Assembly (NCBI GenBank): GCA_030706735.1 | Contig: JAUZNZ010000009.1 | Location: 1 to 64,000 of the forward strand | Origin: Bacteroidota bacterium | Lineage (GTDB): Bacteria > Bacteroidota > Bacteroidia > Chitinophagales > Chitinophagaceae | Length of the DNA: 64,000 bases | Direction of reading: 5' to 3' | In this document: piece after piece, positions 1 to 30,536 of the stretch | How positions within the stretch are numbered: the first letter of the stretch is position 1 | How the letters are laid out: each line of letters begins with the position of its first letter | Position numbers and translations under genes: made by a program | The notes under the pieces: model-generated | Databases searched by the model: none | What the model was told of the DNA's origin: nothing | The model's input: only the letters and a program-made list of their open reading frames with translations

Positions 1-2600
1 ACAAAGGCATCCGAATAGACCAGATCGACGCGCTTTCCGTTGAACTCATAATTATCCGGGTTCGAGTTGTTCACCCATTTACGGATATAAGTAGCAAAAT
101 TTGCGATGATGCTCCAGCTGAAACCATTGGGGTTTACGATAGGGTGGCCGGTCAAAACAGCCTCCCAGCCGTCATTGGTATATATATTGCCGTTGGTCAG
201 GTATGAGGAATAACCCGAAGAGGCGGAAGTGCCCTGGTTGACGATCCCCGTGTTCTTATAATGATAATGGGTCAGATCGAGTCCGATCCGGTTGTTCAAG
301 AAACGGATGTCTGCTCCGAATTCCGTAGCCTTACGCTCCGACGTGAAGATGCTCTTGCTGACTGTTTGATCGGTAAAGGTCGCGCTGTTTTGGTTGGAAT
401 AAGTCGGCGAAAGGCGATAGGTCTGCGCGAACTGGTAAGCCGGACCTCCGTAGGGGGAGGCCCAGAAATAGCCATAGCCGCTTGCCGGCGTCGCGCTTAC
501 ATTCGGAGAGAACAAGGGACTGGTGCCGCCGCTCTTGCTCTCTGCATAGGATGCCCTCAGCTTGAAAAACGAGATTGCACGGGGCAACTGGACGTAATCG
601 GATATCACCGTGGCCAGGTTAAAGGAAGGATAAAAATAGCTGTTCGTATTGGCGGGCAGGGCCGAAGATTTATCGACGCGGCCCGTAACGTTAGCCGTCA
701 CATACGATTTGTATCCCAGATCTACTGAGTAGTAGGCGCTCAGGACAAGCATGTCCGAATGGAAGCTGGTACCTGACAGTGGGTTGAGCGTATTGGTAAA
801 GGAATAAATGCCCGGAACGTTCAGGTAATTCGTAGACTCGAAATTGGAGTTGAAATTCAGGCTCCGGACCGTCGCTCCGCCCAGAGCGGCTAAATTCAGG
901 ACGCCGGCTATATTGCTTTTGTGGTATCTGGCCTGCAGGTCCTCATTGGATTCGAACAGGTTCCTCCTGTCTTCACGGTAATCCCCCTGGCGAAGCTCAC
1001 GACCATATACGTCCGCCGAATAGGGCAGTTTTTCCGAATTGAACATATCATAGGTGGAAATGCTGGGCCTGAATTGGAAATCGAAATTCTCATTGAGCTT
1101 ATAGTTCAGAGATACATACCCGTATTCATTGTTCTGGTAATGGCCGCGCAGCCATTCGTCGGACATGAAATACGGGTTGTTATACCGGTAGTATTCTTCG
1201 TAATTCTGCTGCACGCCTACCTTGCCAGGCTGCCAGTAATTACGCATATCCTTCATGGCCCAATCGGCGCCGCCCCAGATGATGATGTTGTAAATGATGC
1301 TGTTTGGGCCATACGTGACGTCAGGAACATTTGGCGATGACTGCCTGCTGTAGTTGAAATAGGCGGTCATGTTGAACTTATTATTGAATCGTTGTACCAG
1401 ACTGGCTGTAAAGTTGGCATCATTCAGCTTGGTATTCGGAACGATCCCTTGCTGATAGGTGTTCCCAAGAGAAAGCCGGAAATCGGTATTTTCCGTGGAA
1501 GAACTCACGGAGAGACTGTTCGCTGACAACATGCCCGTCTGAATAAACTTCTTCAGATTGTCCCTGCCCCGGGCGATCCAGGGAGTCGGAGCTACATGAC
1601 CGGTGTAGGTGCTGCCGTCCGCAAAAGTAGTTGTGTAGTTCTGAGTGGGGTCATATTTTCCGTCGTACTGCGGGATCAATTGTCCCCGGAACTGAGGCCC
1701 CCATACGTCGTAGTCATAGTCATTGACCCCAACACCCACGGCGCCGCTACCGAAATAGGACGCCGGGCTGGAACCGCCGCCTCCGTAGGCATATTTTCCA
1801 TTATCGCCCGGCCCATACTCGTCATTGTATTTTGGCAGGGCGATAAATCCTTTGTTGATCTGCGTGCTGGAATTGAAATTGATAACAAGCCCCTTACCTT
1901 TCGAGCCTTTCTTGGTCGAGATAATGATCGCCCCGTTCTTTCCCTGGAAACCATAGAGAGCGGCGGCACTCGGGCCCTTCAAGATCGTGAACGACTCGAT
2001 GTCGTCGGGGTTCAGATTATAGGTATCGGAGCTGATCGGAACCCCATCCACGACGAACATGGGCCGGTCACTCGGGTCATTCTCTCCGCGGATGATCACA
2101 TCAGGCGCGTGCCCGAGCTCCTGGTTGATGTTTATTTCCAGACCGGCCGAATTGCCCTTCAGCGAATTGATCGGATCTCCTTCCCTGGCTTGAGTAAGGG
2201 TCGACGCATCGATCGTCTGAACTGCATACCCGATGCGCTTTGCCTCCTTCTTGATACCCGTCGCCGTCACTACTACCTCATTCAGGTTTTTAGCGTTGAC
2301 GCCGACCGCAATAACGACGTTGCCACTTTGCCCGACGGTAAATTCCCGGGTTGCAATACCCACGCCAGTCAAAACGAGGACATCGCCCGTCTTCGCCTTT
2401 ATGGCAAAACGGCCATCAAGACCTGTGGAGGCTCCGATCTTACTTCCTTTGACGGAAACGGTCGCACCGGCAACAGGAGACTGATCGGCATTGGAAATGA
2501 CTTGTCCGTTGAACAAAGACTGCGAAAAGGCGAGAACAGGCATGCATGCCGCTATCAGAAATGCCCAAACCTTAAAGGGAAGAGTAACACTTTTACTCAT
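1..2600 (-). CDS. SusC/RagA-family TonB-linked outer membrane receptor (3' end outside window)
   Basis: An open frame of about 866 codons runs from an ATG at 2600 off the left edge, so the C-terminal strands of the barrel are missing. The N-terminus is a signal peptide ending near AFSQ (residue 27). A carboxypeptidase-regulatory-like beta domain follows (about 30-105), then the NEVVVTATG segment and a plug domain containing VVDGVPI and LYGFQGKNGAIIISTKKG, hallmarks of the SusC family. The rest is Tyr/Asn-rich barrel. Such proteins import oligosaccharides, peptides or other large ligands with TonB energy, usually with a SusD lipoprotein encoded just downstream, which here would lie outside the window. 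The substrate cannot be read from the sequence. The promoter region is shared with the divergent metallophosphoesterase and carries a PHO-box-like repeat. Confidence 0.93.
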   Translation of the reverse strand, partial: MSKSVTLPFKVWAFLIAACMPVLAFSQSLFNGQVISNADQSPVAGATVSVKGSKIGASTGLDGRFAIKAKTGDVLVLTGVGIATREFTVGQSGNVVIAVGVNAKNLNEVVVTATGIKKEAKRIGYAVQTIDASTLTQAREGDPINSLKGNSAGLEININQELGHAPDVIIRGENDPSDRPMFVVDGVPISSDTYNLNPDDIESFTILKGPSAAALYGFQGKNGAIIISTKKGSKGKGLVINFNSSTQINKGFIALPKYNDEYGPGDNGKYAYGGGGSSPASYFGSGAVGVGVNDYDYDVWGPQFRGQLIPQYDGKYDPTQNYTTTFADGSTYTGHVAPTPWIARGRDNLKKFIQTGMLSANSLSVSSSTENTDFRLSLGNTYQQGIVPNTKLNDANFTASLVQRFNNKFNMTAYFNYSRQSSPNVPDVTYGPNSIIYNIIIWGGADWAMKDMRNYWQPGKVGVQQNYEEYYRYNNPYFMSDEWLRGHYQNNEYGYVSLNYKLNENFDFQFRPSISTYDMFNSEKLPYSADVYGRELRQGDYREDRRNLFESNEDLQARYHKSNIAGVLNLAALGGATVRSLNFNSNFESTNYLNVPGIYSFTNTLNPLSGTSFHSDMLVLSAYYSVDLGYKSYVTANVTGRVDKSSALPANTNSYFYPSFNLATVISDYVQLPRAISFFKLRASYAESKSGGTSPLFSPNVSATPASGYGYFWASPYGGPAYQFAQTYRLSPTYSNQNSATFTDQTVSKSIFTSERKATEFGADIRFLNNRIGLDLTHYHYKNTGIVNQGTSASSGYSSYLTNGNIYTNDGWEAVLTGHPIVNPNGFSWSIIANFATYIRKWVNNSNPDNYEFNGKRVDLVYSDAF

Positions 2601-2672
2601 AAACAGTAAGTTTTTAGTTGAGGAAAACGGGGATTAACCGGAGGCGAAATTATCCGGGCAATGTGAAGCGAA

Positions 2673-2701
2673 GGTTAGCATGCGTTTAAGGAAACGTTAA
2701 C
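2673..2701. promoter_or_regulatory. PHO-box-like 11-bp direct repeat (site A)
   Basis: Three related heptamers, GGTTAGC, GTTTAAG and CGTTAAC, start at 2673, 2684 and 2695, exactly 11 bp apart. This is the geometry of PhoB/PhoP-type boxes (7-bp half sites with 4-bp spacers). The site lies in the 206-bp divergent region, 73 bp upstream of the SusC-like start and 106 bp upstream of the metallophosphoesterase start. Similar arrays occur at 10759 and 28631. The binding protein is inferred; no phoB/phoR is encoded in the window. Confidence 0.5.
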
Positions 2702-2806
2702 AGTTCGGGCTTTCGGTAATATTCCGTTCATAAATACCTCACAATTTGTTAACCAATGGATAAAACTGGGGTAATAGTATATATAGACCTTTGAAAAACC
2801 ACAAGA

Positions 2807-3646
2807 ATGGAAAAGCGATCCGTCGATGTCGTCGTGCTATCCGACATTCACCTGGGTACTTACGGATGCAGGGCCAGGGAGCTGACCAACTATCTCAGGA
2901 GCATCTCACCAAACATCCTCATTCTGAACGGAGATATTATCGACGGGTGGCAGTTCACCAAACGTTATTTTCCGGCCGCACACATGCTTGTCCTGAAGGA
3001 GATCATCAATTTGATCACTCAGGGAGCGCGGGTGTTCTATATCACGGGCAACCATGATGAAATGCTCCGGCGTTACACCGACATCCAAATAGGCAACTTT
3101 ACCCTGACTGACAAATTGGTCCTTGAGATTGACAATAAGATGACCTGGATATTCCATGGCGATGTCTTTGACAATACCACGAAAGGAAGCGCGAGGATAC
3201 TGGCCAAGCTCGGGAGCAGGGGCTATCAAGTGCTTATCCGGTTTAACCGCTGCATAAATTACGTGCTCAACCTTTTTGGACAGGAGCGTGTATCGATCTC
3301 TAAAAGAGTGATGGCAGGGGTGAACAAAGCGGTTAGCAAAGTGAACGACTTCGAACTGATAGCTGCCGAACTGGCCATCGAGAAAAAGTACGACTATGTG
3401 ATTTGCGGTCATATCCATCAGCCGCAAAAGAAGCTGGTCGAGACGAAGGCGGGAAAAGTGACCTATTTGAATTCCGGGGACTGGGTGGAGCATTTGACAG
3501 CCCTGGAGTACCAGCAGAACGAATGGACCATTTTCGAATACCAGGATAAGAACTTCCCCGCGACACAGACGGTTGAAATGAGGCCGTCACTCAGCGTTTT
3601 AACGGATGAGATCAATTTTTATATTAATTCTCTGGCTGCTATCTAA
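2807..3646 (+). CDS. PlcP-like metallophosphoesterase (UDP-2,3-diacylglucosamine diphosphatase family)
   Basis: 279 aa calcineurin-like phosphoesterase with the full metal set: SDIHLG (12-17), GDIIDGW (42-48), GNHDE (81-85), HGD (118-120) and GHIH (201-204). The family (COG2908) includes LpxH and the phosphate-starvation phospholipase C PlcP. The segments GTYGCR, GDIIDGW, HGDVFD and NSGDWVE match, from memory, the PlcP-type subgroup of Sinorhizobium better than E. coli LpxH. There is no signal peptide, so it should act at the cytoplasmic face. It sits 10 bp before a glycosyltransferase, downstream of a PHO-box-like repeat and next to the pst operon. This supports cleavage of phospholipid to diacylglycerol under phosphate limitation. 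A lipid A (LpxH) role is the alternative. Confidence 0.85.
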   Translation: MEKRSVDVVVLSDIHLGTYGCRARELTNYLRSISPNILILNGDIIDGWQFTKRYFPAAHMLVLKEIINLITQGARVFYITGNHDEMLRRYTDIQIGNFTLTDKLVLEIDNKMTWIFHGDVFDNTTKGSARILAKLGSRGYQVLIRFNRCINYVLNLFGQERVSISKRVMAGVNKAVSKVNDFELIAAELAIEKKYDYVICGHIHQPQKKLVETKAGKVTYLNSGDWVEHLTALEYQQNEWTIFEYQDKNFPATQTVEMRPSLSVLTDEINFYINSLAAI

Positions 3647-3656
3647 ACTTACTACC

Positions 3657-4694
3657 ATGAAAATTCTTTATTCAGTGCAAGCAACCGGAAATGGCCATAT
3701 CAGCAGGGCCATGGAGATTTTGCCCTATATCGAGCGCTATGGGCAGGTTGACGTTTTCCTCAGCGGCGCGAACTACACGCTGGAACTCGATGCCCCGGTC
3801 AAATACCGCAGTAAAGGACTTTGTCTGTTCTACACGAACAGTGGGGGGTTGAACTATCTGGAGATGATCAGAAAGTTCGCGCCCCTGCGGATCCTGCGAG
3901 AGGTGAGGGACCTGCCCGTCGAAAAATACGATCTGGTCATCAACGATTTTGAAAGCATCACGGCCCTCGCCTGTGCGTTCAAAAAAGTGCCGTCCGTAAA
4001 TTTCGGCCACCAGGCCAGCTTTGTTTCGCCCAAAACGCCACGCCCAACGCACCGCGACCGCATGGGAGAATGGATATTGCGGAACTATGCGCGGGCAACC
4101 AAATATATCGGGCTTCATTTCAGGCAATATGACGATTTCATCCTTCCGCCGGTGATTAAAAAAGAGATTCTGCAGGCCGACCCCACAGACAGGGGCCATA
4201 TCACCGTCTATCTTTCCTCCTATGATGACATGACGGTCGGCAGCTATCTGGCGCCACTGAAAGACCACCGGTTCGAGGTCTTTTCGAAAGAAGTGAGCTC
4301 ACCAGTGCGGGAGGGCAATATCCTATTTCTTCCGGTCGGCGGGTCGGCCTTCAACAAAAGCCTGATCCGATGCAAGGCCATAATCACCGGGGCAGGCTTC
4401 GAAACGCCGGCAGAAGCGCTATACATGGGCAAAAAATTACTGGTTCTCCCGATCCGCGGTCAATATGAACAGTTCTGCAATGCCGCCGCTCTGCAAAAAA
4501 TGGGGGTTCCGGTCCTGGAGGCCTTGGGGCCCGACTTTGCAAATACCTTCTCTGCCTGGATGGCAGACCAAAAAAGACCATCGCTGACCCTCGATCACTC
4601 GACTGATTCCATTGTGAGCTATGTCATGCAGCATGCCGGGAGTCAGGACAAGAACATGCTGGACATGCTCTACCCCGATTGCGTGTTCAACTAG
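3657..4694 (+). CDS. GT28-like (GT-B fold) glycosyltransferase
   Basis: 345 aa from the ATG at 3657. A longer frame opens at 3606 but would overlap the preceding gene, which stops at 3646. The N-terminal GNGHISRA resembles the glycine-rich acceptor loop of MurG and MGDG synthases. The C-terminal ITGAGFETPAEALYMGKKLLVLPI followed by QYEQFCNA is the nucleotide-sugar site typical of GT28 and related families. No signal peptide or clear membrane span is seen, as expected for a peripheral membrane enzyme. It is probably co-transcribed with the PlcP-like gene 10 bp upstream. By analogy with PlcP-Agt pairs it may glycosylate the diacylglycerol released by PlcP. The sugar and acceptor are inferred, not seen. 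Confidence 0.8.
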   Translation: MKILYSVQATGNGHISRAMEILPYIERYGQVDVFLSGANYTLELDAPVKYRSKGLCLFYTNSGGLNYLEMIRKFAPLRILREVRDLPVEKYDLVINDFESITALACAFKKVPSVNFGHQASFVSPKTPRPTHRDRMGEWILRNYARATKYIGLHFRQYDDFILPPVIKKEILQADPTDRGHITVYLSSYDDMTVGSYLAPLKDHRFEVFSKEVSSPVREGNILFLPVGGSAFNKSLIRCKAIITGAGFETPAEALYMGKKLLVLPIRGQYEQFCNAAALQKMGVPVLEALGPDFANTFSAWMADQKRPSLTLDHSTDSIVSYVMQHAGSQDKNMLDMLYPDCVFN

Positions 4695-4934: not shown

Positions 4935-5597
4935 TCAATGCTTTTTATTGTGTTTAAGCACCTTTGCCTCCAGATAGAAGATGATCTCTTCGGCAATATT
5001 TTTCGATTGATCACCGACCCTCTCCAGCCGGCGGATGATCGAGAGGATCCATAACGCCTGCAGGGTATCTTCCGGATGGTCCTTAAGGTACTTGTCCAGG
5101 ATACCCGTTGCGCCGAGATTGATATTATCCAGGAACTCATCCTTTTTGAAGACCCCGCGTGCCAATATGGTGTCCTCCTGCTCAAAGGCATTCTGCGTGT
5201 CATCAAGGATGACAACGGATTCGTCATACATTTGGAGGATCCGGCTGACTTCCAGCAACTCCTTCTTGAATGGCCCGTCCGCTTTGATGACATATTTGGC
5301 GATTCCATCGGCAATGTCCCCGATACGTTCAAGGTTCGAGTTGATCTTTAAAACGGCAAGGAGGAAGCGAAGGTCGATCGCCACCGGACAGAATAAGGCA
5401 AAGATGTTCTCGCAATCCCGGTCAATCTTCAATTCTGTCGCATTCACCCTTTTTTCCTTTTGTGTCACTTCGCGCGCCAGGTCCTTGTCGAAATTCACGA
5501 AGGCAAGACGGGCATTGCTCAATTGGGAACGAACGAGCGTATACATGTAAGTGACTTCAACCTTGAGGAGCTGCAATTCTGTTTCGATTTGTGCCAT
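4935..5597 (-). CDS. phoU: Phosphate signalling complex protein PhoU
   Basis: 220 aa, all helical, with the duplicated PhoU motif: NSNLERIGDIADGIAKY in the first half and IRRLERVGDQSKNIAEEI in the second, the E/D residues that bind metal clusters. Length fits the family (about 215-240 aa). PhoU restrains signalling from PstSCAB to the PhoR kinase when phosphate is plentiful and limits phosphate uptake. It is the last gene of the porin-pstSCAB-phoU operon, 38 bp after pstB. Confidence 0.96.
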   Translation of the reverse strand: MAQIETELQLLKVEVTYMYTLVRSQLSNARLAFVNFDKDLAREVTQKEKRVNATELKIDRDCENIFALFCPVAIDLRFLLAVLKINSNLERIGDIADGIAKYVIKADGPFKKELLEVSRILQMYDESVVILDDTQNAFEQEDTILARGVFKKDEFLDNINLGATGILDKYLKDHPEDTLQALWILSIIRRLERVGDQSKNIAEEIIFYLEAKVLKHNKKH

Positions 5598-5635: not shown

Positions 5636-6412
5636 TTAACTGAACCGGCCGGTAATATAATTTTGGGTTCTGTTGTCCTTGGGATTGGTGAACATTGTTT
5701 TCGTCTCGTCATATTCGACGAGCTCGCCGAGGTAAAAAAAAGCCGTACGGTCGCTGACACGGGCTGCCTGTTGCATATTGTGTGTCACGATGATCAGGGT
5801 GTAATTGGTCTTGAGCTCATGGAACAGTTCCTCTACCGTTGAGGTAGATATCGGATCCAGGGCTGAAGTAGGTTCGTCGAAAAGCAGAACTTCCGGTTCC
5901 ATCGCAACAGCCCTTGCGATACAAAGGCGCTGCTGCTGGCCGCCCGAGAGGAAGGATCCCTTCTTATTTAACGAATCCTTGACCTCATTCCAGAGGGCCA
6001 CGCGGGTCAGGGAATGCTCCACAATGCGGTCCCGCTCCGTGCGGGCCAACTTGATGCCGTTCAATTTGTATCCTGCAATGACATTGTCATAGATGCTCAG
6101 GTTAGGAAAGGGATTGGGACGCTGGAAGACCATACCGATCTTTAAACGCACAAATATGGGATGCATTTCATAGATATCCTCGTCATTGATCTTCATTTCC
6201 CCCCTGGAACTGGCCCCGGGGATCAGCTCATGCATTCTGTTTATGCAACGCAGGTAGGTAGTTTTTCCGCATCCGGAAGGTCCCATGACCGCGACAACCT
6301 GGTTCCGGGGAATATCGATATTTACGTTCTTCACAACATGGTTCGTACCGAAATACGCATTGAAATCCCTGCTCTTGATGACCACACTGTCTTTTACAAT
6401 TGTACTTTCCAT
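5636..6412 (-). CDS. pstB: Phosphate ABC transporter ATP-binding protein
   Basis: 258 aa ATPase. Walker A GPSGCGKTT (44-52), Q-loop region MVFQRPNPFP, ABC signature LSGGQQQR (155-162) and Walker B LLFDEPTSALD (176-186) are all intact. The frame stays open upstream to 6484, but the ATG at 6412 gives the usual PstB N-terminus and overlaps the end of pstA by 19 bp, consistent with translational coupling. It powers high-affinity phosphate import through PstC and PstA. Confidence 0.97.
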   Translation of the reverse strand: MESTIVKDSVVIKSRDFNAYFGTNHVVKNVNIDIPRNQVVAVMGPSGCGKTTYLRCINRMHELIPGASSRGEMKINDEDIYEMHPIFVRLKIGMVFQRPNPFPNLSIYDNVIAGYKLNGIKLARTERDRIVEHSLTRVALWNEVKDSLNKKGSFLSGGQQQRLCIARAVAMEPEVLLFDEPTSALDPISTSTVEELFHELKTNYTLIIVTHNMQQAARVSDRTAFFYLGELVEYDETKTMFTNPKDNRTQNYITGRFS

Positions 6413-7242
6413 TTTCTTGTTATCAGCTTGGTAAAAATATTCAGTAGTAGGACCCACATCAGCAGGATAAGGGACGCGCCCCATGCGAGGTCATGCCAGT
6501 CGTTATAAGGGCTGGTAGCATAATTGAATATCAATAGCGGCAGGCTATGCATGGGTTTGGTGATATTTGTCGTCAGGTAAGGATTTCCAAATGCGGTGAA
6601 CAGCAGCGGCGCGGTTTCTCCGGTTATTCTCGCTATAGACAGCATGACGCCGGATAGAATGCCGCTGATTCCGCATGGAACGATAACCTTAAAAATGACG
6701 CGATGAAAAGGCATACCCAGGGCATAAGCCGCCTCCTTCAAGGAATCAGGCAGCAACTTCAGCGTCTCTTCCGTGGAACGGACTACGATGGGCAGCATCA
6801 TGATGGCCAGGGCCACGCTGCCGGACAATGCCGAAAACCCGCGAAGCGGCTTAACCAGCCAGAAATAAGCAATGATGCCGATCACGATCGAAGGTACTCC
6901 TTGCAGGATGTCTACGGACAAACGGCTCCAATAAGCCAGCTTGCTTTTCCGGTTCTCGCTGAGAAAGATCCCGGTCATGATGCCGATGGGGACCGCAATG
7001 ACCGAAGCCACAAGAATAATGATCACGCTACCGACCAGCGCATTGGCGATGCCCCCTCCTATTTCCCCGACGGGCTTGGGGACATTGACCAAAAAATGCC
7101 AGTTGATCTTCGTGATCCCCGCTTTAACAATGTAAAAGAGGATGGCCAATAGCGGTACCACACAGGCAAACGCGAACAATATAGTCGCCAGCTGAAATCC
7201 GATGCTTTTACCGATCCGGTAATTAACGCTGCCTATATTCAT
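6394..7242 (-). CDS. pstA: Phosphate ABC transporter permease PstA
   Basis: 282 aa, about six membrane segments, with the ABC permease EAA loop (EAAYALGMPFHRVIFKVIVP) and the TGETAPLLFTA segment characteristic of PstA. It forms the inner-membrane channel together with PstC. It lies 6 bp after pstC and its 3' end overlaps pstB. Confidence 0.97.
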   Translation of the reverse strand: MNIGSVNYRIGKSIGFQLATILFAFACVVPLLAILFYIVKAGITKINWHFLVNVPKPVGEIGGGIANALVGSVIIILVASVIAVPIGIMTGIFLSENRKSKLAYWSRLSVDILQGVPSIVIGIIAYFWLVKPLRGFSALSGSVALAIMMLPIVVRSTEETLKLLPDSLKEAAYALGMPFHRVIFKVIVPCGISGILSGVMLSIARITGETAPLLFTAFGNPYLTTNITKPMHSLPLLIFNYATSPYNDWHDLAWGASLILLMWVLLLNIFTKLITRKWKVQL

Positions 7243-7248
7243 ATACCC

Positions 7249-8238
7249 TTATTCGGTTGTAAATCGATCTATTATTTTCTTTCCGATCATATTGATCACG
7301 ACCGTCACCAGGAACAGCACCAGTCCCAATTCGATGAGCGCAGAGAGGTAAACCGCCTTATCGGCCTCTGTGAACTCATTGGCGATGACGGACGCCATCG
7401 TGTTCCCCGGTGAAAAAATGTTCTTTGGGATGATACTGGTATTCCCGATCACCATGGTGACCGCCATTGTCTCACCGAGAGCCCGCCCCAGGGACAATAG
7501 GATACCGGCGAACAACCCGGATTTCGTATACGGCAGGACTACGCTTCGGATCACCTCCCACCTGGTAGCGCCTAATCCGTAGGCGGCCTCCTTAAGGGTG
7601 GAAGGCACCATTTGGATCATTGAGCGGCCGAGGGAGGCGGCATAGGGAATGATCATCACGGCCAGGATGAGGGAGGAACTGAAGATCCCCACGCCCACCG
7701 GCTGGACGCCGATCTTGTTCTCGAAATTTCGCACGATCGGAACCAACACGGCCAGTCCCCAGAAGCCATAAATGACCGATGGCACCGCGGCGATCAACTC
7801 GACGGTGTTCTTTAACAGGTTCGGGAGCCAGCCTTTGGGATAATATTCACCCAGGAATATGGCTACAGCAATGGAAAAGGGTATGGAAATGAACAAGGCC
7901 AGGAAAGAGCTGATCAATGTGCCCAGAAGGAAGGGCCATGCCCCGTAGATATCCTGTACGGGATCCCAGACCTTACCCCAAAGATATTTAGGGCCCAGTG
8001 CTTTGATGGAAGGCAGGGACTGCACGACCAGGGTCAGCAGGATGCCGAGGACCAGAATGACCATGAGAATTCCCATGATCACCAGCGTACGTTTAAAGAC
8101 ATTCTCGGTGCGTATCTGCCGAAAAGGTCGCCTTGTTTTCGCCTTCGCTTTCACCAATTGCCCGGCTCCCGCAGAACTAATTACCCGCAGTGAAAGGTCG
8201 CTGCGGGTAATTGCATCATTCTCAACAGATCTGTCCAT
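7249..8238 (-). CDS. pstC: Phosphate ABC transporter permease PstC
   Basis: 329 aa. The ATG at 8238 is preferred over an upstream in-frame start at 8277 because a perfect GGAGG lies 8 nt before it and the upstream start would lie inside pstS. An unusual basic cytoplasmic N-tail (about 50 residues) precedes six membrane segments. The EAA loop EAAYGLGATRWEVIRSVVLP and the LGRALGETMAVTMVIGN segment identify PstC. It is the partner of PstA. Confidence 0.97.
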   Translation of the reverse strand: MDRSVENDAITRSDLSLRVISSAGAGQLVKAKAKTRRPFRQIRTENVFKRTLVIMGILMVILVLGILLTLVVQSLPSIKALGPKYLWGKVWDPVQDIYGAWPFLLGTLISSFLALFISIPFSIAVAIFLGEYYPKGWLPNLLKNTVELIAAVPSVIYGFWGLAVLVPIVRNFENKIGVQPVGVGIFSSSLILAVMIIPYAASLGRSMIQMVPSTLKEAAYGLGATRWEVIRSVVLPYTKSGLFAGILLSLGRALGETMAVTMVIGNTSIIPKNIFSPGNTMASVIANEFTEADKAVYLSALIELGLVLFLVTVVINMIGKKIIDRFTTE

Positions 8239-8254
8239 AAAGGTTCCTCCATAA

Positions 8255-9364
8255 TTATTGCAAGATCGGCTTACCATCGTAGGTCGCCGATTTCAGGATC
8301 GCATCACCTACACTCACGGCGGCAGGTGAAAGGGGTGCATAGTTGAGTGCACCGCTGTATTGCTGGCCGTCATGGATCATCCAGGATATAAGTTTAAGTA
8401 ATTTAGTGGTCTTGTCGGCCGTACGATCGCCATATTTCTGTTCTTTGTAGATCAGCACCCAGGAGAACCCGGAAATGGGGTATCCATCAGCAGCATCTGT
8501 ATTGGTCAGGGATACTTTCGAATCCGCCGGGATCTGGATGTTGGCAGCAGCCGTTACGCTGGCAATGCTGGGCGTAATAAAATTACCTGCCTTATTTTGC
8601 ACCTTGGCAAAAGCCATATTATTCTGGATCGCATAAGCGATCTCAATATACCCGATCGCCCCGGGGGTTTGCTTGATCAACCCGGCCACACCTTCGCTGC
8701 CTTTTCCGCCCAACCCTGCGGGCCAATTGACCGAGGAACCTTTCCCAACCTTGGTATTCCATTCCGGGCTGACTTTGGCGAGATAGGTCGTGAAAATATT
8801 CGTGGTTCCACTGCCGTCGGAACGGTGCGCGATCAGGATTGAGGTAGCGGGTAATTTGGCCCCTTTGTTGATCGCGGCAATTTTCGGATCGTTCCACTTG
8901 GTGATCTTCCCGAGAAAAATATCGGCCAGGACACCTGGAGTCAATAATAGCGTATCCTTTACCTCTGGCAGATTGTAGCTCATTACGACAGCGCCGGCCG
9001 TAATCGGGATATGGATCACGGGGGAGGAAACAGCCGAGTCCTGCTTGCCATTCATCGGCGCATCCGAAGCGCCAAAGTCGACCGTCTTACTGGTCAGCTG
9101 GGCAATTCCCGCGCCTGATCCCACTGACTGATAATTCACCTTCAGCCCATTCAATTTGTTGTACTCCGAAAACATTTTGGAGAACAACGGATTATCGAAG
9201 GAGCTGCCTGCCCCGATGATGGCTTCGTCATTGCTTGCGGATGAAGCCGTACTGTCGCTGCCCGAGGCGCTGCCTCCACCGCCACCGCACGACAGGAGGC
9301 TGAGGGAAACAAAGATCAAACTCGCTGTGCAGAAGCTTTTAAAGCTGAAAAGGATCGTTTTCAT
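8255..9364 (-). CDS. pstS: Phosphate-binding lipoprotein PstS
   Basis: 369 aa with a lipoprotein signal peptide whose lipobox is LLSCGG (cysteine near residue 26), then a Gly/Ser-rich tether. The mature domain has the PstS phosphate-site segments GAGSSFDNPLFSKM, VDFGASDAPM and HRSDGSGTT. It captures periplasmic phosphate and hands it to PstCA. It is the second gene of the operon, 25 bp after the porin, with no room for its own promoter. Confidence 0.96.
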   Translation of the reverse strand: MKTILFSFKSFCTASLIFVSLSLLSCGGGGGSASGSDSTASSASNDEAIIGAGSSFDNPLFSKMFSEYNKLNGLKVNYQSVGSGAGIAQLTSKTVDFGASDAPMNGKQDSAVSSPVIHIPITAGAVVMSYNLPEVKDTLLLTPGVLADIFLGKITKWNDPKIAAINKGAKLPATSILIAHRSDGSGTTNIFTTYLAKVSPEWNTKVGKGSSVNWPAGLGGKGSEGVAGLIKQTPGAIGYIEIAYAIQNNMAFAKVQNKAGNFITPSIASVTAAANIQIPADSKVSLTNTDAADGYPISGFSWVLIYKEQKYGDRTADKTTKLLKLISWMIHDGQQYSGALNYAPLSPAAVSVGDAILKSATYDGKPILQ

Positions 9365-9389: not shown

Positions 9390-10670
9390 TTAACGAGCAA
9401 AAGGATAATAAGAATAGCTCGGGTTCGCGAAGAGCTTTCCAAAGGTAAAATAAAAGGTCAGCCTGTACACCACGTCATAATCATGTGCGGCTGCTCCGGT
9501 CAGGTTTGCCTGCTGGCCGATATACTTATTATACCAGATATTGGGGATAAAATGTATATTATTGACCGGGGAATAGTCGAATCCCGCGGACAGGAACCTT
9601 TCCTTGTTATTCGGTTCATAAGCAGTACCAAGCGAATAGAGTGCCGAATATTTGGTATAGGTCGTATTATCGTATTTCGTATTGGGATTGTAAAAATCGT
9701 ACCTGAAGAAGGCGCGGAGCTTGGACCCAACAATATTGGCATGCGCATATAAGGTTAATCCCGTTGCCCGGCCATCCAACGTATCCTTAACTGCACCGGC
9801 GGTGCCAACCTCGGCCTGTTTCAGCCCATTTGTGTACCCCTCGATGCCGATCGTGAACTTCTTGTCGACCCAGATCAATGCGCCCTTCGTCATTTGACGG
9901 GCGGAATGTCCATGCGTGCCAGGCACCCAATTTTGTCTTTGATAATCTGCGTAAAGATCGAGAATGAGGTGACGCTGAAGGAACCCCACGAAAACGTCTC
10001 CATAGAACCATTTGTAAAGGTTGGTGTTCAGGGCCTGCGGTTTGGCGCTCGACCCGTTCGCTACAAGGAGATTGTACCCGTAGAAGGCAGATTTATCCTT
10101 GGAGTTGAACCTTCCCTGCAGGCCGGCCCCGAAATCGAAGGAAGGGGTCCTGCGTATATCTGTAATGGTTCTTTCCACCGGCCGGGAAAAGGTGAATAGA
10201 TTTTCGGTCATATACGGAAAGGCGGGTGTAGGTTGTAACCCGATAACGAGGTCGTTGCCGTTAAAAAGGAAATCTTTCCAACGGACATTGGCAAATTTAA
10301 TGTAGGGAGTGAATTTATTGTCCGAAAGCACATCTCCCGTCCCGGTGAAATCGTCCTCAGCGGCAAAAAGGAACTCGGCAGAGAATTTTTTGCTTATGTT
10401 GTAATCATACCCGATATATATCCGGCGAAATTGAAATTCATCCAGACCTTTTTTTACATTGGTATATTGGTTATTTCCTCCCCGATTTAAGGAATCACTA
10501 TGGCCCTTATGGAAATAATCCCCGAAAACATAGCCCCAAAGCCTCCCGGAGTTGGGCACGCCGGCCTTAAAAGCGGAATCGGAGTTCCATAGGTACTGGG
10601 CCTTTAGAGAGATGGCAGAAAATGATAAGAGCGCAAGAAAAAAATAAGGCAGAATAATTCTCCTTTTCAT
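9390..10670 (-). CDS. Outer membrane porin, OprO/OprP-like, leading the pst operon
   Basis: 426 aa with a signal peptide (cleavage near LKAQ, residue 25) and a beta-barrel with alternating aromatic strands ending in YPFAR. Features such as EFQFRRIYIGYDYNISKKFSAEFLFAAE and late strands with SAGFDYSPVNNIHFIPNIWYNKY resemble the phosphate-selective porin O/P superfamily. As first gene of the pst operon it is probably the outer-membrane entry route for phosphate. Selectivity is inferred from position. A PHO-box-like repeat starts 89 bp upstream. Confidence 0.85.
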   Translation of the reverse strand: MKRRIILPYFFLALLSFSAISLKAQYLWNSDSAFKAGVPNSGRLWGYVFGDYFHKGHSDSLNRGGNNQYTNVKKGLDEFQFRRIYIGYDYNISKKFSAEFLFAAEDDFTGTGDVLSDNKFTPYIKFANVRWKDFLFNGNDLVIGLQPTPAFPYMTENLFTFSRPVERTITDIRRTPSFDFGAGLQGRFNSKDKSAFYGYNLLVANGSSAKPQALNTNLYKWFYGDVFVGFLQRHLILDLYADYQRQNWVPGTHGHSARQMTKGALIWVDKKFTIGIEGYTNGLKQAEVGTAGAVKDTLDGRATGLTLYAHANIVGSKLRAFFRYDFYNPNTKYDNTTYTKYSALYSLGTAYEPNNKERFLSAGFDYSPVNNIHFIPNIWYNKYIGQQANLTGAAAHDYDVVYRLTFYFTFGKLFANPSYSYYPFAR

Positions 10671-10758
10671 AAAAGTCTTGGTTGATTAGAAAATAGTTTT
10701 GTCAACAGTAGAGCTGAAACGATTCGGATGCAAAGCAATACCTATGCAATGACCCCAA

Positions 10759-10787
10759 TGTTACCGGAATGTTACCTTAATGTTAAC
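10759..10787. promoter_or_regulatory. PHO-box-like 11-bp direct repeat (site B)
   Basis: Near-identical heptamers TGTTACC, TGTTACC and TGTTAAC start at 10759, 10770 and 10781, a perfect 11-bp period. They lie 89-117 bp upstream of the porin start of the pst operon, where a Pho regulator would be expected to bind. On the coding (minus) strand the units read GGTAACA or GTTAACA. The rest of the 254-bp gap between the porin and the AraC gene shows no gene. Confidence 0.62.
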
Positions 10788-10924
10788 AAAAACGGCTGGG
10801 CAGCTTCGCGAGACTTTCATTAAATAGTTGCAAATCAGCAATTCATGTATTATTATGACCGAACCTGGCCAGCCCAGCAGACCGCACGAGACGCTATGTC
10901 CGCTAGAGCGACGGAGGAAGGAGA

Positions 10925-26232: not shown

Positions 26233-27999
26233 TTATTTCGAAACCTGGTCGCGGGACGCCCCTCCCGAACTATCACCGAGCTTGATAAGGAACCAGGCAT
26301 CCAGCGCATGTGGCCTTGTCCGCCAGTCGAAGAAACCGGCAGTCAGCCCGCTGACGTGAAAGTTGGGGAATCGCCTCAATGCCTGTATGTTATATCCCCT
26401 GGACCGGAGCGAGTCCATGTAAGTCGAAGACAGGAAAACCCAAACTGGACCGGCACCTGCATTAATCCGTAGGCTGTCCATCGGCAGGTACCGTATCGTT
26501 CCGGGACAATAAAAGGTAAATGAATAATTCGAAGGCGCCTCGCGAAGCATATAGACTTCCTGTGGCGGAATGCCATCCCGGCTTCGCAGGCTTTTGCCGG
26601 CCACCATACCTGCCTGATAATGCATCATGGCAGGATAAAGGCAGAAATTGAGGAAGGCATAGGCGATGAGGGCCAGCCAAAAACTGCGCATAACGGCAGT
26701 TTGAAGTTTCCCTACAGCCCCTTTGTCCATTTTCATACGGGGAGAAACCAGGAATGCCGCAAGGCCGGATAGAGCGAGCAACAAGACAATCAGACCCTTA
26801 TAAGCCGTGAAGTGGAACCACCAGGCCAGCTCGCACAGGAGTATGGCCGTCAGCAGAGCAATTCCATTCTGGATCATGGTAAAGGCCCGGCGAGATACCT
26901 GGCCTTCAAGGTGATCCAACTTTTCGGCAGTCAAAATGGAGAAAAAGGGGAACAGGATATTCAAATAATGGGGCAGCTGGAATTTGGATAGAGAAAACAT
27001 TGAAAAACTGATCAGGGCGGCTCCCAGGCAAAGGAAATCCCCCGGTACGGGGGCTCTGTTGGCGACCCGCCATTTGCAGCTTTTGTGAACGATGGCGTAA
27101 TACAACAAAATAGACCAGGGTGCAAAGGCCCAAAGCAGGGTGTGAAGAAAGAAGAAGGGGTTTCCGCTGCCTCGTATGGGTCCATTGTTCATAAACCGGC
27201 CGAATTGGCTATCCCATAGGAACCATCGGATGCCAGACACGTTTTGCCGGCCAAAAATTAATTTTTCCGGGTGCATATCGAACTGTCGATACAGGCAATA
27301 CAGCTCCGGACTAATAAAAATGGCGATCAGGACAAGAGCGAGCCACCAGCGGGGCAGCAGGAACTGTCGCCAATCCCTTGTCCTTACGCAGTCAACTAAT
27401 AGCCCGGCGCCTATGGTAACCAGGACAAACGGCCCTTTGGTCATTGTCGCGCAGGCAGCCAGGGCCGATCCCGCCACGATATGCAATCCACCTCCTTTGC
27501 TCCTATTGCGGGAGGCCCTGAAGAAATGATAGACGGCGCCGGCGATTAATCCGGTAAGATATGGCTCCGCACGGACGTCATTGTTCGAGATCACGAGATG
27601 TGCGGCAGAAACGTAGATCAAAACGGCAAAGCGGGCCACAGACCTGCCATACAGGACAAGAGCGAGGCGCCAGGTATAATAGCCGCCGGCTGCCCAGAAA
27701 AGCAGGGCCGGAAACTTATAAGCGAAGCTATTTATGCCGAAAGCGCGAAAGCTCAGGGCCGCCACCCAGAAAGGGAAATGAGGCTTATCGAGCCAGTCGC
27801 TCCCCCCGACCCTCAAATCGATGAAATCCCCCGCCTGTGCCATGGAGCGGGCAATGGTTGCATAGAGAGCTCCATCCGGTTCAAGAATAGGTATAAACAA
27901 AGCGCCGGCATTGACCATGATAGCTGCCCCGAGAAGCCAGCCAAAGCCTTTATACCATTTGTTCCACCCATCGATAGGATATGTCAGATCAGTATTCAA
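26233..27999 (-). CDS. ArnT-like glycosyltransferase (GT39/GT83 family)
   Basis: 588 aa with about 12 membrane segments in the N-terminal 420 residues and a soluble periplasmic C-terminal domain. The first loop holds EPDGALYATIARSM, with the catalytic acidic residue typical of PMT/ArnT enzymes, and GSDWLDKPHFPFW. The family moves a sugar from a polyprenyl-phosphate donor to lipid A or another periplasmic acceptor. It overlaps the PAP2 phosphatase gene upstream by 11 bp, so the two are coupled. The transferred sugar is unknown. Confidence 0.88.
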   Translation of the reverse strand: MNTDLTYPIDGWNKWYKGFGWLLGAAIMVNAGALFIPILEPDGALYATIARSMAQAGDFIDLRVGGSDWLDKPHFPFWVAALSFRAFGINSFAYKFPALLFWAAGGYYTWRLALVLYGRSVARFAVLIYVSAAHLVISNNDVRAEPYLTGLIAGAVYHFFRASRNRSKGGGLHIVAGSALAACATMTKGPFVLVTIGAGLLVDCVRTRDWRQFLLPRWWLALVLIAIFISPELYCLYRQFDMHPEKLIFGRQNVSGIRWFLWDSQFGRFMNNGPIRGSGNPFFFLHTLLWAFAPWSILLYYAIVHKSCKWRVANRAPVPGDFLCLGAALISFSMFSLSKFQLPHYLNILFPFFSILTAEKLDHLEGQVSRRAFTMIQNGIALLTAILLCELAWWFHFTAYKGLIVLLLALSGLAAFLVSPRMKMDKGAVGKLQTAVMRSFWLALIAYAFLNFCLYPAMMHYQAGMVAGKSLRSRDGIPPQEVYMLREAPSNYSFTFYCPGTIRYLPMDSLRINAGAGPVWVFLSSTYMDSLRSRGYNIQALRRFPNFHVSGLTAGFFDWRTRPHALDAWFLIKLGDSSGGASRDQVSK

Positions 28000-28597
28000 G
28001 GACCAATTCCCCGCTTAAGCGCCCGGTATCCTGGCGGTTCCACAAATAAGCAAAGATCCTGGACATCCCTATTCCGGTCAGGAGCCCGAAGATGGATCCG
28101 GCCACAATATCCAGGGGATAGTGTTTCCCTACATAGACCTGTGCATACCCGATGGCCCCGGCCCAGAACCATAGCCAGGTCCATCGTTTCCCGGTCATCG
28201 TCCTTATGGAAAAATACCAGAAGGCCGCCAGACCGACATGGTTGGCCGCGTGACTGGAAGGCATTGAATACAAGCCGCCACAGTCCACCAGGCCCCGGAG
28301 CAGCGTACTGAGTTCCGGCTCGTAGCAAGGCCGGGGGCGCTCAAAAAGAGGTTTCAATAGCTGCGCACTGACACTGTCGGTGATCGCAAAGGTCAGCAAA
28401 CTTAGCATTATAAAGATCCATGCTTTCTTCCTCCCCTTCCTGATCCCATAGTAAAGCAACAGCGCGTAGAGAGGGATCCACGTATAAGGATCGCGCAACA
28501 CCGGCATGATCCTGTCCAAAACGGGATGGTCTGAGTCGTGTTGGATCAGTACAAAGAGCAATTTATCCAGGTGATCCAGCCAATTGAGCAGTGACAT
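27989..28597 (-). CDS. PAP2-family membrane phosphatase
   Basis: 202 aa, six membrane segments, with the complete acid-phosphatase triad: K82 to RP (KPLFERPRP), PSSHAANH (113-120) and VGKHYPLDI (156-164). It would remove phosphate from a lipid such as undecaprenyl pyrophosphate, phosphatidylglycerophosphate or lipid A on the periplasmic side. It is the first gene of a two-gene unit with the ArnT-like transferase. Its start lies 34 bp from a PHO-box-like array shared with the divergent DUF47-PiT genes. Confidence 0.9.
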   Translation of the reverse strand: MSLLNWLDHLDKLLFVLIQHDSDHPVLDRIMPVLRDPYTWIPLYALLLYYGIRKGRKKAWIFIMLSLLTFAITDSVSAQLLKPLFERPRPCYEPELSTLLRGLVDCGGLYSMPSSHAANHVGLAAFWYFSIRTMTGKRWTWLWFWAGAIGYAQVYVGKHYPLDIVAGSIFGLLTGIGMSRIFAYLWNRQDTGRLSGELVLEY

Positions 28598-28630
28598 GTG
28601 GCTCTAGTTTAGATAAAGCTACAAGTCCGG

Positions 28631-28670
28631 GTTTACCGCTATGTTGCCGGGAGGTTACGGTTAGGTTAAA
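28631..28670. promoter_or_regulatory. PHO-box-like 11-bp direct repeat (site C)
   Basis: Four related heptamers start at 28631 (GTTTACC), 28642 (TGTTGCC), 28653 (GGTTACG) and 28664 (GGTTAAA), each exactly 11 bp apart. The array sits in the 136-bp divergent region between the PAP2 gene (start 28597) and the DUF47-PiT phosphate genes (start 28734). Regulation by a PhoB-like protein is inferred. Confidence 0.58.
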
Positions 28671-28710
28671 GATCCGTGAACGATGGCATGAGATTATCCT
28701 TTAATAGTTC

Positions 28711-28718
28711 TATTTTTG
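28711..28718 (+). promoter_or_regulatory. Candidate Bacteroidota -7 element (DUF47-PiT)
   Basis: TATTTTTG fits the TAnnTTTG consensus of the primary sigma factor in Bacteroidota. It lies 15 bp before the DUF47 start and 40 bp after the 11-bp repeat array. No convincing TTG -33 element is seen at the usual distance, consistent with activator dependence. Confidence 0.4.
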
Positions 28719-28733
28719 CCCAAATTTTTTGAC

Positions 28734-29381
28734 ATGGCATTTAATTCTTTCATGAAATTGTTCACCCCGAAGGACAGGGTGTTTTACTCCCTGTTCGAGG
28801 AAGTGGCGGATAGTGTGGGGAAGATGGGGAGATTGATGAAAGAGGTGGTTGCGGAACCCGATTTCGACAAAAGGGCCGCTGTAATCTCGCAGGTGGAGGA
28901 TCAGGAGCATGTCAATGACGACCTTACTCACCGGATCTTCACTGAGTTAGGCAGGAATTTCATCACTCCGTTCGATCGGGAGGACATTCATTACCTGGCC
29001 AGCGCCCTGGACGATATATGCGATTATATCTATGCCACCGCCAAGAAGATCAATTTCTATAAGGTCAACCCCAACGACAGCGGCATTCAGAAAATGGCCG
29101 ACCTCATCGAGCAAAGTGCCGCCCAGATCCGCATTGCGGTCATGGAACTGCGAAACATGCGGGATATGCGCAAGATCACAGACGCACTTGTCAAGGTAAA
29201 CAGTATCGAGAACCAGGCCGACGACATTTTCGATCTGAGTATCGAGCGGCTCTTCGAGACGGAACCGGACGCCAAGGAGGTAATCAAGAAAAGGGAGATC
29301 TACCAGGTCATGGAGATCGTCACCGATAAATGCGAAGACGCGGGCAATGTCATCGAATCCATTATTATTAAATATGCGTAG
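28734..29381 (+). CDS. DUF47 / PhoU-like phosphate transport regulator
   Basis: 215 aa from the ATG at 28734; a TTG at 28716 is in frame but overlaps the -7 element. The helical protein has PhoU-like features: SALDDICDYIYATAKKINFY and EIVTDKCEDAGNVIESIIIKYA, the conserved D/E residues of DUF47. Such proteins are encoded with PiT transporters and are thought to control their activity. The PiT gene follows 117 bp downstream. Confidence 0.93.
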   Translation: MAFNSFMKLFTPKDRVFYSLFEEVADSVGKMGRLMKEVVAEPDFDKRAAVISQVEDQEHVNDDLTHRIFTELGRNFITPFDREDIHYLASALDDICDYIYATAKKINFYKVNPNDSGIQKMADLIEQSAAQIRIAVMELRNMRDMRKITDALVKVNSIENQADDIFDLSIERLFETEPDAKEVIKKREIYQVMEIVTDKCEDAGNVIESIIIKYA

Positions 29382-29387
29382 GGAGAT

Positions 29388-29477
29388 AGCCGCAGGCTTT
29401 AAGCTACAAGCTGGGGGCGGGACTTACATACCATTAGCATCCTCAATTTATAATATGAGCCGGTTTGTAGCTTGCGG
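29388..29477. repeat. Imperfect long inverted repeat between DUF47 and PiT genes
   Basis: Left arm begins AGCCGCA (29388) and continues to AAGCTACAA (29401-29409). Right arm has TTGTAGCTT (29465-29473) followed by GCGGCT. The AAGCTACAA arms pair perfectly and the AGCCGC blocks pair outside them, with a 7-nt bulge on the left. The loop is about 55 nt. It may be a copy of a dispersed intergenic element or a processing/attenuation hairpin within the operon. Confidence 0.5.
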
Positions 29478-29498
29478 CTTGCCCCTCGACGCTTCACT

Positions 29499-30536
29499 AT
29501 GACATTTTTGATCATAATTATCATTCTTGCCCTTGTCTTCGACTATATTAACGGATTTCATGACGCAGCCAATTCAATCGCCACGATTGTTTCCACAAAA
29601 GTGCTGACCCCCTTTCAAGCAGTGCTCTGGGCAGCCCTTTTCAACTTTGGGGCGTTTTTCATGGCTAAATATGTTCTCAAGGAATTCAAGATCGGCAATA
29701 CCATCGCCAGTTCGGTCAACCCGGAATTCATCAACCTGGATGTGATCTTCTCGGGACTTATCGCAGCCATCTGCTGGAATCTGCTTACCTGGTGGTTTGG
29801 TATCCCTTCGAGTTCCTCCCATACCTTGCTGGGCGGCTTTATGGGGGCGGCCCTGGCGCATGCGGGGGCTTTGAGCCAGCATGGCCTCGCCGTGATCAAT
29901 TATGCCAAGGTCGTACCCACTTTCCTGTTTATCTTCGTCGCCCCGTTCATTGGCATGCTTACCGGTTTCCTTATCTGCGTGCTCATTATCAATATATGCC
30001 GGAGGACCAACCCATACCGTGCCGATAACTGGTTCCGCCGATTGCAGCTCCTGTCTTCCGCCCTCCTTAGCCTGGGGCACGGCAGCAATGATGCACAAAA
30101 GGTAATGGGGATCATCGGGGCGGCTATCATCTTTTACCATAAGTCGTTGGGCCATAGCATGACTTTTATGCAGTTCATTAATGGCAACATGTGGGTGCCG
30201 TTGGCCAGCTTTTCGGCAATTGCCCTCGGAACGATGAGCGGAGGTTGGAAGATCGTCAAGACCATGGGAACGAGGATCACGAAGGTCACGCCGCTGGAAG
30301 GCGTCAGCGCAGAAACCGCAGGAGCGCTGACTCTGTTTCTGTCGGACAAACTGGGCATTCCGGTTTCCACTACACATACGATCTCCGGTTCCATCATCGG
30401 GGTCGGGGCGACGCGCCGTCTCTCCGCCGTGCGGTGGGGGGTAACCATCAACCTGCTCTGGGCCTGGATCCTGACCATTCCTGTGAGCGCCTTACTGGCT
30501 GCATTCGTCTATTTTGTAGTTCACCTGTTCCGGTAA
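29499..30536 (+). CDS. PiT-family inorganic phosphate transporter
   Basis: 345 aa, about ten membrane segments, from the ATG at 29499. The duplicated PiT signature is present: DYINGFHDAANSIATIVSTK with GIPSSSSHTL in the first half, and SLGHGSNDAQKVMGII with GIPVSTTHTISGSI in the second. It is a low-affinity phosphate symporter of the inner membrane. Paired with DUF47 and a candidate PHO box, it complements the PstSCAB system in the same window. Confidence 0.96.
   Translation: MTFLIIIIILALVFDYINGFHDAANSIATIVSTKVLTPFQAVLWAALFNFGAFFMAKYVLKEFKIGNTIASSVNPEFINLDVIFSGLIAAICWNLLTWWFGIPSSSSHTLLGGFMGAALAHAGALSQHGLAVINYAKVVPTFLFIFVAPFIGMLTGFLICVLIINICRRTNPYRADNWFRRLQLLSSALLSLGHGSNDAQKVMGIIGAAIIFYHKSLGHSMTFMQFINGNMWVPLASFSAIALGTMSGGWKIVKTMGTRITKVTPLEGVSAETAGALTLFLSDKLGIPVSTTHTISGSIIGVGATRRLSAVRWGVTINLLWAWILTIPVSALLAAFVYFVVHLFR

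Follow-up and report, generated by a model that had tools for sequence, protein, structure and literature searches.

In the PlcP-Agt system described for Pseudomonas aeruginosa and Pelagibacter (PMC8528852, PMC4796936), a PlcP homologue is followed by a glycosyltransferase, and a Pho box has been reported; the genes PA3219-PA3218 of P. aeruginosa show this same order (PMC8528852). In the Bacteroidota, the idea of lipid remodelling by PlcP together with a glycosyltransferase of the pf04101 type has already been published for Flavobacterium johnsoniae (PMC8115612). According to Table 1 of that report, where both genes are listed under lipid remodelling, phosphate depletion gave a transcript fold change (FC) of 8.59 for the PlcP Fjoh_4577, whose protein was not detected, and a transcript FC of 5.42 and a protein differential expression (DE) of 7.04 for the glycosyltransferase Fjoh_0541. 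Here we describe a related gene pair in a 64,000-nucleotide stretch (hereafter the window, meaning the whole stretch analysed) that forms the start of contig C90 in the 5.05-Mb genome of a Chitinophagaceae bacterium. The pair consists of a plcP-type metallophosphoesterase gene (2807-3646, plus strand, 279 aa) and a GT-B glycosyltransferase gene of the PF13528 family (3657-4694, plus strand, 345 aa). It shares with F. johnsoniae a Bacteroidota PlcP and a related type of glycosyltransferase; however, the F. johnsoniae genes lie apart, with the pf04101 enzyme in the phoBR operon (PMC8115612), whereas here the PF13528 enzyme is encoded beside plcP. We consider it probable that the pair is a Pho-regulon operon which would replace membrane phospholipid with a phosphorus-free glycolipid under phosphate shortage. 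The parts of this proposal that are backed by sequence are the PlcP affiliation, a separate LpxH, the conserved gene order, the promoter array and a PhoB-like gene.

The protein encoded at 2807-3646 matched PF00149 with 51.5 bits (cut-off 21.5) and PF12850 with 46.1 bits (cut-off 27), and its stretches GDIIDGW, GNHDE, HGDVFD, GHIHQP and NSGDWVE are similar to those of the Sinorhizobium meliloti and P. aeruginosa proteins. A phosphoesterase tree was calculated for 82 proteins, comprising 30 LpxH rows (E. coli, this genome's own and 28 other Bacteroidota) and 52 others. The two sets were separated with a support of 100/100, and the window protein was placed among the 52, alongside the PlcP references from S. 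meliloti and P. aeruginosa; the same support was obtained after the removal of four long-branch rows, including E. coli LpxH. The assignment to the PlcP subgroup made in the initial annotation was thereby borne out by the phylogenetic check that it had proposed. The references themselves were identified by organism and gene order: the S. meliloti protein (30.8% identical to the window protein), which we take to be SMc00171, beside sinR, adjoins AHL (N-acyl-homoserine lactone)-synthase and LuxR genes, and the plasmid-borne PlcP-type protein of P. aeruginosa (38.5% identical) precedes a GT4 gene.

An LpxH-like lipid A enzyme, which would place the pair in lipopolysaccharide synthesis, has the same calcineurin-like fold and metal-binding motifs, and UDP-2,3-diacylglucosamine diphosphatase is the public annotation of such proteins. 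The window protein also gave weak matches to the LpxH models PRK05340 and TIGR01854 (51.9 and 42.6 bits), far below the cut-offs of 134 and 190 and close to the values of the P. aeruginosa PlcP-type protein (55.1 and 44.5); E. coli LpxH reached 364 and 389, and the genome's own LpxH 96.3 and 79.9, likewise under both curated cut-offs. This separate LpxH, found by a genome search suggested in the initial annotation, is encoded at C90:113418-114275 and falls inside the LpxH clade, so that the window protein is not the only LpxH homologue of the genome. When it was used as a query, a match at E<=1e-12 was obtained in 28 of 28 genomes searched, 21 of them with a strong PlcP form. An LpxH identity of 2807-3646 was rejected on the tree, the genome's own LpxH and the model scores, and with the PlcP-like motifs and the PHO-box array added, a role as LpxH appears very improbable. 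We therefore treat 2807-3646 as a PlcP-type metallophosphoesterase, predicted to cleave phospholipid to diacylglycerol.

The product of 3657-4694 matched PF13528 with 109.5 bits (cut-off 25), its sole Pfam match at E<=0.01, and TIGR00661 (the MJ1255/VC2487 subfamily) with 131.3 bits, under the cut-off of 195.9. The longest open reading frame (ORF) begins at 3606, yet for most relatives the alignment supports the ATG at 3657, and the upstream start was rejected for this reason; with the start at 3657, the two ORFs are separated by 10 bp, as initially annotated. The plasmid-borne PlcP partners of P. aeruginosa and Sphingomonas are GT4 enzymes (PF13439 with PF13692), whereas neither of these domains was matched by 3657-4694 at E<=0.01, and the P. 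aeruginosa partner found just four partial matches of 24-32 bits in the genome. An Agt/GT4 nature of the partner was rejected on the domains and on the absence of any strong match to Agt in the genome, and a true monogalactosyldiacylglycerol (MGDG) synthase on the absence from the genome of the MGDG-synthase domain PF06925. In hhalign comparisons, the profile of 3657-4694 was closest to a second Bacteroidota glycosyltransferase with a PF04101 match (E 1e-6, probability 91); the relation to MurG was weak (E 0.01, probability 4), and there was none to a GT4 set of three sequences (E 0.47) or to the window's phosphoesterase, used as negative control (E 0.096). The initial annotation had described the partner as GT28-like and of the MGDG/MurG type rather than GT4. 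The exclusion of GT4 was upheld, and the MGDG/MurG label is at best loose: Pfam gave no PF04101 match, so that the protein is not formally GT28, and a distant kinship runs solely through the second glycosyltransferase. Sequence searches of the PDB returned no significant relative (none at E<=10 in one, best E 0.21 in another), and the top named matches among those listed were metagenome assemblies named Puia (74 and 72% identity). We predict that 3657-4694 is a GT-B, PF13528 glycosyltransferase acting on diacylglycerol.

For the analysis of the promoter region, both strands of the 64 kb were scanned with an 11-bp motif (consensus TGGTAACATTC), for which sixteen units taken from pst-cluster promoters in four other genomes had served as the training set. 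The top four-unit site of the window was the array of its pst cluster (10745-10788, minus strand), and the top sites beyond this promoter were 2659-2702 (minus strand) and 2714-2757 (plus strand), both intergenic and ahead of the pair. When six units were used, 2714-2779 (plus strand), which comprises six 11-bp repeats and faces the pair, was the second-best site of the window, with a score of 27.3 vs 28.0 for the top pst site. Among spacings of 8 to 15, a spacing of 11 scored 16.3, and those of 8-10 and 12-15 scored between -16.2 and 0.9. When dinucleotide shuffling was applied 2000 times to the 200-bp upstream region, the observed four-unit score was reached once and the three-unit score 11 times. 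The PHO-box-like repeat proposed at the outset was thus right in substance, the array at 2714-2779 being beyond chance by a motif trained on other genomes; the repeat nearest 2673, however, does not face the pair and belongs to 2659-2702, a minus-strand array of four 11-bp repeats in front of a divergent TonB-receptor gene.

The array test was extended to 70 regions upstream of plcP, the window included (four of these regions belong to genomes that had supplied training promoters), and, as controls, to 250 of 334 genes from the same loci. At p<=0.05, an array was found in 61/70 plcP regions vs 40/250 controls, at p<=0.01 in 51/70 vs 26/250, and with a score of at least 10 in 37/70 vs 15/250; in the relatives, the plcP arrays mostly lie 45-105 bp ahead of the start. 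The genome's own LpxH gene gave p 0.18. A PhoB-like regulator gene was located at C31:12881-13555, and its protein is 70% identical to the response regulator of locus L207, whose best family is PhoB, below the cut-off (231 of 296 bits). The pst-like array and the PhoB-like protein encoded in the genome mark the pair as a putative member of the Pho regulon. A genome-wide array pattern (up to 3 mismatches) recovered the pst promoter with two overlapping mismatch-free matches; it does not map the regulon, with 11 matches in all vs 7 for a reversed control.

The proposed operon would work as follows. Under low phosphate, the PhoB-like regulator would bind the repeats at 2714-2779, and 2807-4694 would be co-transcribed and turned on along with the pst cluster. 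PlcP would then remove the head group of membrane phospholipids to give diacylglycerol and a phosphorylated head group, the phosphate of which would be recoverable. The PF13528 glycosyltransferase would transfer a sugar onto diacylglycerol, with a nucleotide sugar as donor, and the resulting phosphorus-free glycolipid would substitute for phospholipid.

In order to assess the spread of the pair, 345 Bacteroidota genomes were surveyed, 297 of which matched the phosphoesterase at E<=1e-10, LpxH-type matches included. Counting that of the window, 102 genomes contained strong PlcP matches (E about 1e-81 or better), and in 74 of these the glycosyltransferase lies directly downstream on the same strand. 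Among named genomes, the best 80 loci were taken, and the pair is present in 71; two of the nine loci lacking it hold just 201 and 354 bp upstream and cannot be judged. Even in a distant PlcP class (L106-L121), a PF13528-like gene is next door in 10/16 loci. On the basis of these adjacency counts across the Bacteroidota, the distant class included, the plcP-glycosyltransferase pairing is probably old and phylum-wide. The divergence of plcP and that of the glycosyltransferase are correlated over 70 pairs (r 0.78), a correlation that shared ancestry alone would give in part. Neighbourhood regulators were called by similarity to L207 alone, with families checked on L207. PhoBR-like, ppk/ppx, PiT/PhoU_div or pst genes occur in the fetched stretch of 26 of the best 80 named loci and of 16/47 loci of at least 18 kb, both counts being without a random baseline. 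A conserved pst linkage as the general pattern was rejected (pst in 6 of the best 80 named loci).

A different arrangement was observed in 20 Flavobacterium-type genomes (group g19; the genus name is inferred), 5 with and 15 without a strong match to the window glycosyltransferase. In each, a single protein matches PF04101 strongly and was assigned as MurG, and one or more further PF04101 proteins are encoded. The further glycosyltransferase that we followed lies close to phoB-phoR in 15/20 genomes, close to pst in 4/20 and close to neither in 1/20. In 2/20, both among the 15 in which it is close to phoB-phoR, it stands directly behind plcP, beside phoBR. Its gene order matches that of Fjoh_0541 to Fjoh_0545 (glycosyltransferase, OprP-position gene, PhoR, PhoB, TonB receptor), and on this order we regard it as the Fjoh_0541 type. 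In Flavobacterium-type genomes, 5/7 of these genes had an array at p<=0.05. The genome studied here also has such a second glycosyltransferase with a PF04101 match, at C8:96392-97591 (L276 6393-7592), on a contig other than those of pst and the PhoB-like gene; its upstream array has p 0.002, with a low score and a position far from the start.

Several observations weigh against a phosphate-controlled phospholipid replacement. With respect to the phosphoesterase, its nearest solved structures by sequence are LpxH (best E 5e-6), a point that also favours the lipid A role discussed above, and both characterised PlcP references form part of a 27-row clade of their own, with the window's branch outside it, so that they share only the same side of the LpxH split and the window protein differs in this from the two proteobacterial PlcP proteins. 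As to the promoters, the array is not significant in 9/70 plcP regions, and 26/250 control genes are also positive at p<=0.01. Moreover, when four further plcP regions of Flavobacterium were tested, three gave p 0.15-0.45 (those of two plcP genes that stand before the second glycosyltransferase and that of one orphan plcP gene out of two), and glycosyltransferase genes without plcP in front were array-positive in 3/9 cases, two of the nine lying at contig edges. Linkage to pst is limited to few relatives (6 of the best 80 named loci).

These promoter and linkage data bear on whether the pair is instead constitutive, making glycolipid at all times, with the array and the pst neighbourhood coincidental. 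In 31/47 long loci, the search for phosphate genes returned nothing, and the 12.7 kb shown around the pair of Parabacteroides distasonis likewise contains none. In this gut anaerobe (L075 5974-7895), a distant PlcP-like gene overlaps a PF13528 glycosyltransferase gene, the two being annotated as LpxH and glycosyltransferase family protein. Against coincidence stand the rank of 2714-2779 in the six-unit scan and the arrays, similarly placed, ahead of most relatives' plcP tested, and we hold constitutive synthesis to be quite improbable.

A further possibility, to which we give a small but real share, is that PlcP is phosphate-regulated and its diacylglycerol flows mainly into other phosphorus-free lipids or turnover, with the glycosyltransferase using another acceptor. 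The flavobacterium Dokdonia MED134, which bears plcP (among the genes tested by RT-PCR in a study that reports induction, a point in favour of phosphate control), lost phospholipid after phosphate starvation and showed aminolipids, with no glycolipid in the data considered here (PMC4796936). Likewise, the lipid make-up of Labilibaculum is given as constant, with no glycolipid in the data considered here, at 0.35 mM phosphate, which is hardly starvation (PMC12927429). Among the 102 strong-PlcP genomes, 23 lack a strong glycosyltransferase match (E 1e-59 or better) and 5 have one elsewhere. Set against another acceptor are the tight linkage in 74/102 genomes, the correlated divergence of the pairs (in part shared ancestry) and the position of a related glycosyltransferase close to phoBR or pst in 19/20 Flavobacterium-type genomes. 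Replacement of phospholipid by glycolipid thus remains our favoured explanation.

The surroundings of the pair include further phosphate-related genes. The pst-phoU cluster, entirely on the minus strand, is tail-to-tail with the pair and consists of phoU (4935-5597), pstB (5636-6484), pstA (6394-7242), pstC (7249-8277) and pstS (8255-9364; TIGR00975, 356.9 bits, cut-off 205); pstB was named from its ABC ATPase domain, pstA and pstC from their permease domains, and all three also from gene order. The first gene of the cluster (9390-10670) had been annotated as a porin; the pst-phoU part of that description stands, and the porin label is that of the initial annotation, searches of Pfam (E<=0.01) and NCBIfam (E<=1) having returned no match for this gene. 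Divergent from plcP, a SusC/RagA TonB-dependent receptor gene (3-2600, minus strand) is truncated by the contig end and, given the array at 2659-2702, is possibly phosphate-regulated; it brings to mind F. johnsoniae, in which PusC and TonB receptors are phosphate-induced (PMC8115612). SusC/RagA-like receptors (E<=1e-30) are present in 5 of the best 80 named loci. The eight best-scoring control genes of the array test look TonB-receptor-like (one, in L207, confirmed by Pfam), and the six top control scores (29-37) lie before such genes within about 8 kb of the pair (L184, L207, L162, L195, L180, L222), which suggests phosphate-uptake islands. Elsewhere in the window, a four-unit array (28628-28671, minus strand, score 11.9) lies 31-74 bp before a PAP2-superfamily phosphatase gene (27989-28597, minus strand), after which comes a gene for a membrane glycosyltransferase of the PMT_2 type (26233-27999, minus strand), with divergent PhoU_div and PHO4/PiT genes at 28716-30536. 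These array-fronted PAP2/PMT_2 genes could possibly serve phosphate-controlled dephosphorylation of lipid or lipid A.

With regard to published work, a Bacteroidota lipid glycosyltransferase of the pair's kind was not encountered among the listed titles and abstract openings of open-licence papers, in searches that did not use PF13528 or MJ1255 as terms. Nor did the papers considered, the supplementary gene table of PMC4796936 being outside the scope, describe the operon partner, its extent across the phylum, the array in the promoter or the partner exchange. The initial suggestion of an independently assembled pathway fits the non-orthologous partner; on the other hand, the arrangement extends across the phylum and is probably old, and remodelling by PlcP plus a pf04101 enzyme has already been put forward for F. 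johnsoniae (PMC8115612).

Phosphate-driven phospholipid replacement in Proteobacteria was worked out with a GT4 enzyme, and the Bacteroidota are major heterotrophs. We lean, with reserve, towards the view that the PF13528 enzymes encoded after plcP represent a new class of diacylglycerol glycosyltransferase under phosphate control, a phylum-wide counterpart of Agt. The Bacteroidota would then have built or kept a pathway of their own in which the glycosyltransferase is exchanged between the PF13528 type (beside plcP) and the PF04101 type (beside phoBR, pst or plcP), an exchange seen within one Flavobacterium-type genus. The conserved pair and its readable promoter code would provide a named candidate gene for Bacteroidota phosphorus-free glycolipids, and would make such loci findable under their current labels of LpxH and unspecified glycosyltransferase. 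They may also offer a natural case in which one step of a pathway is filled by different enzymes.

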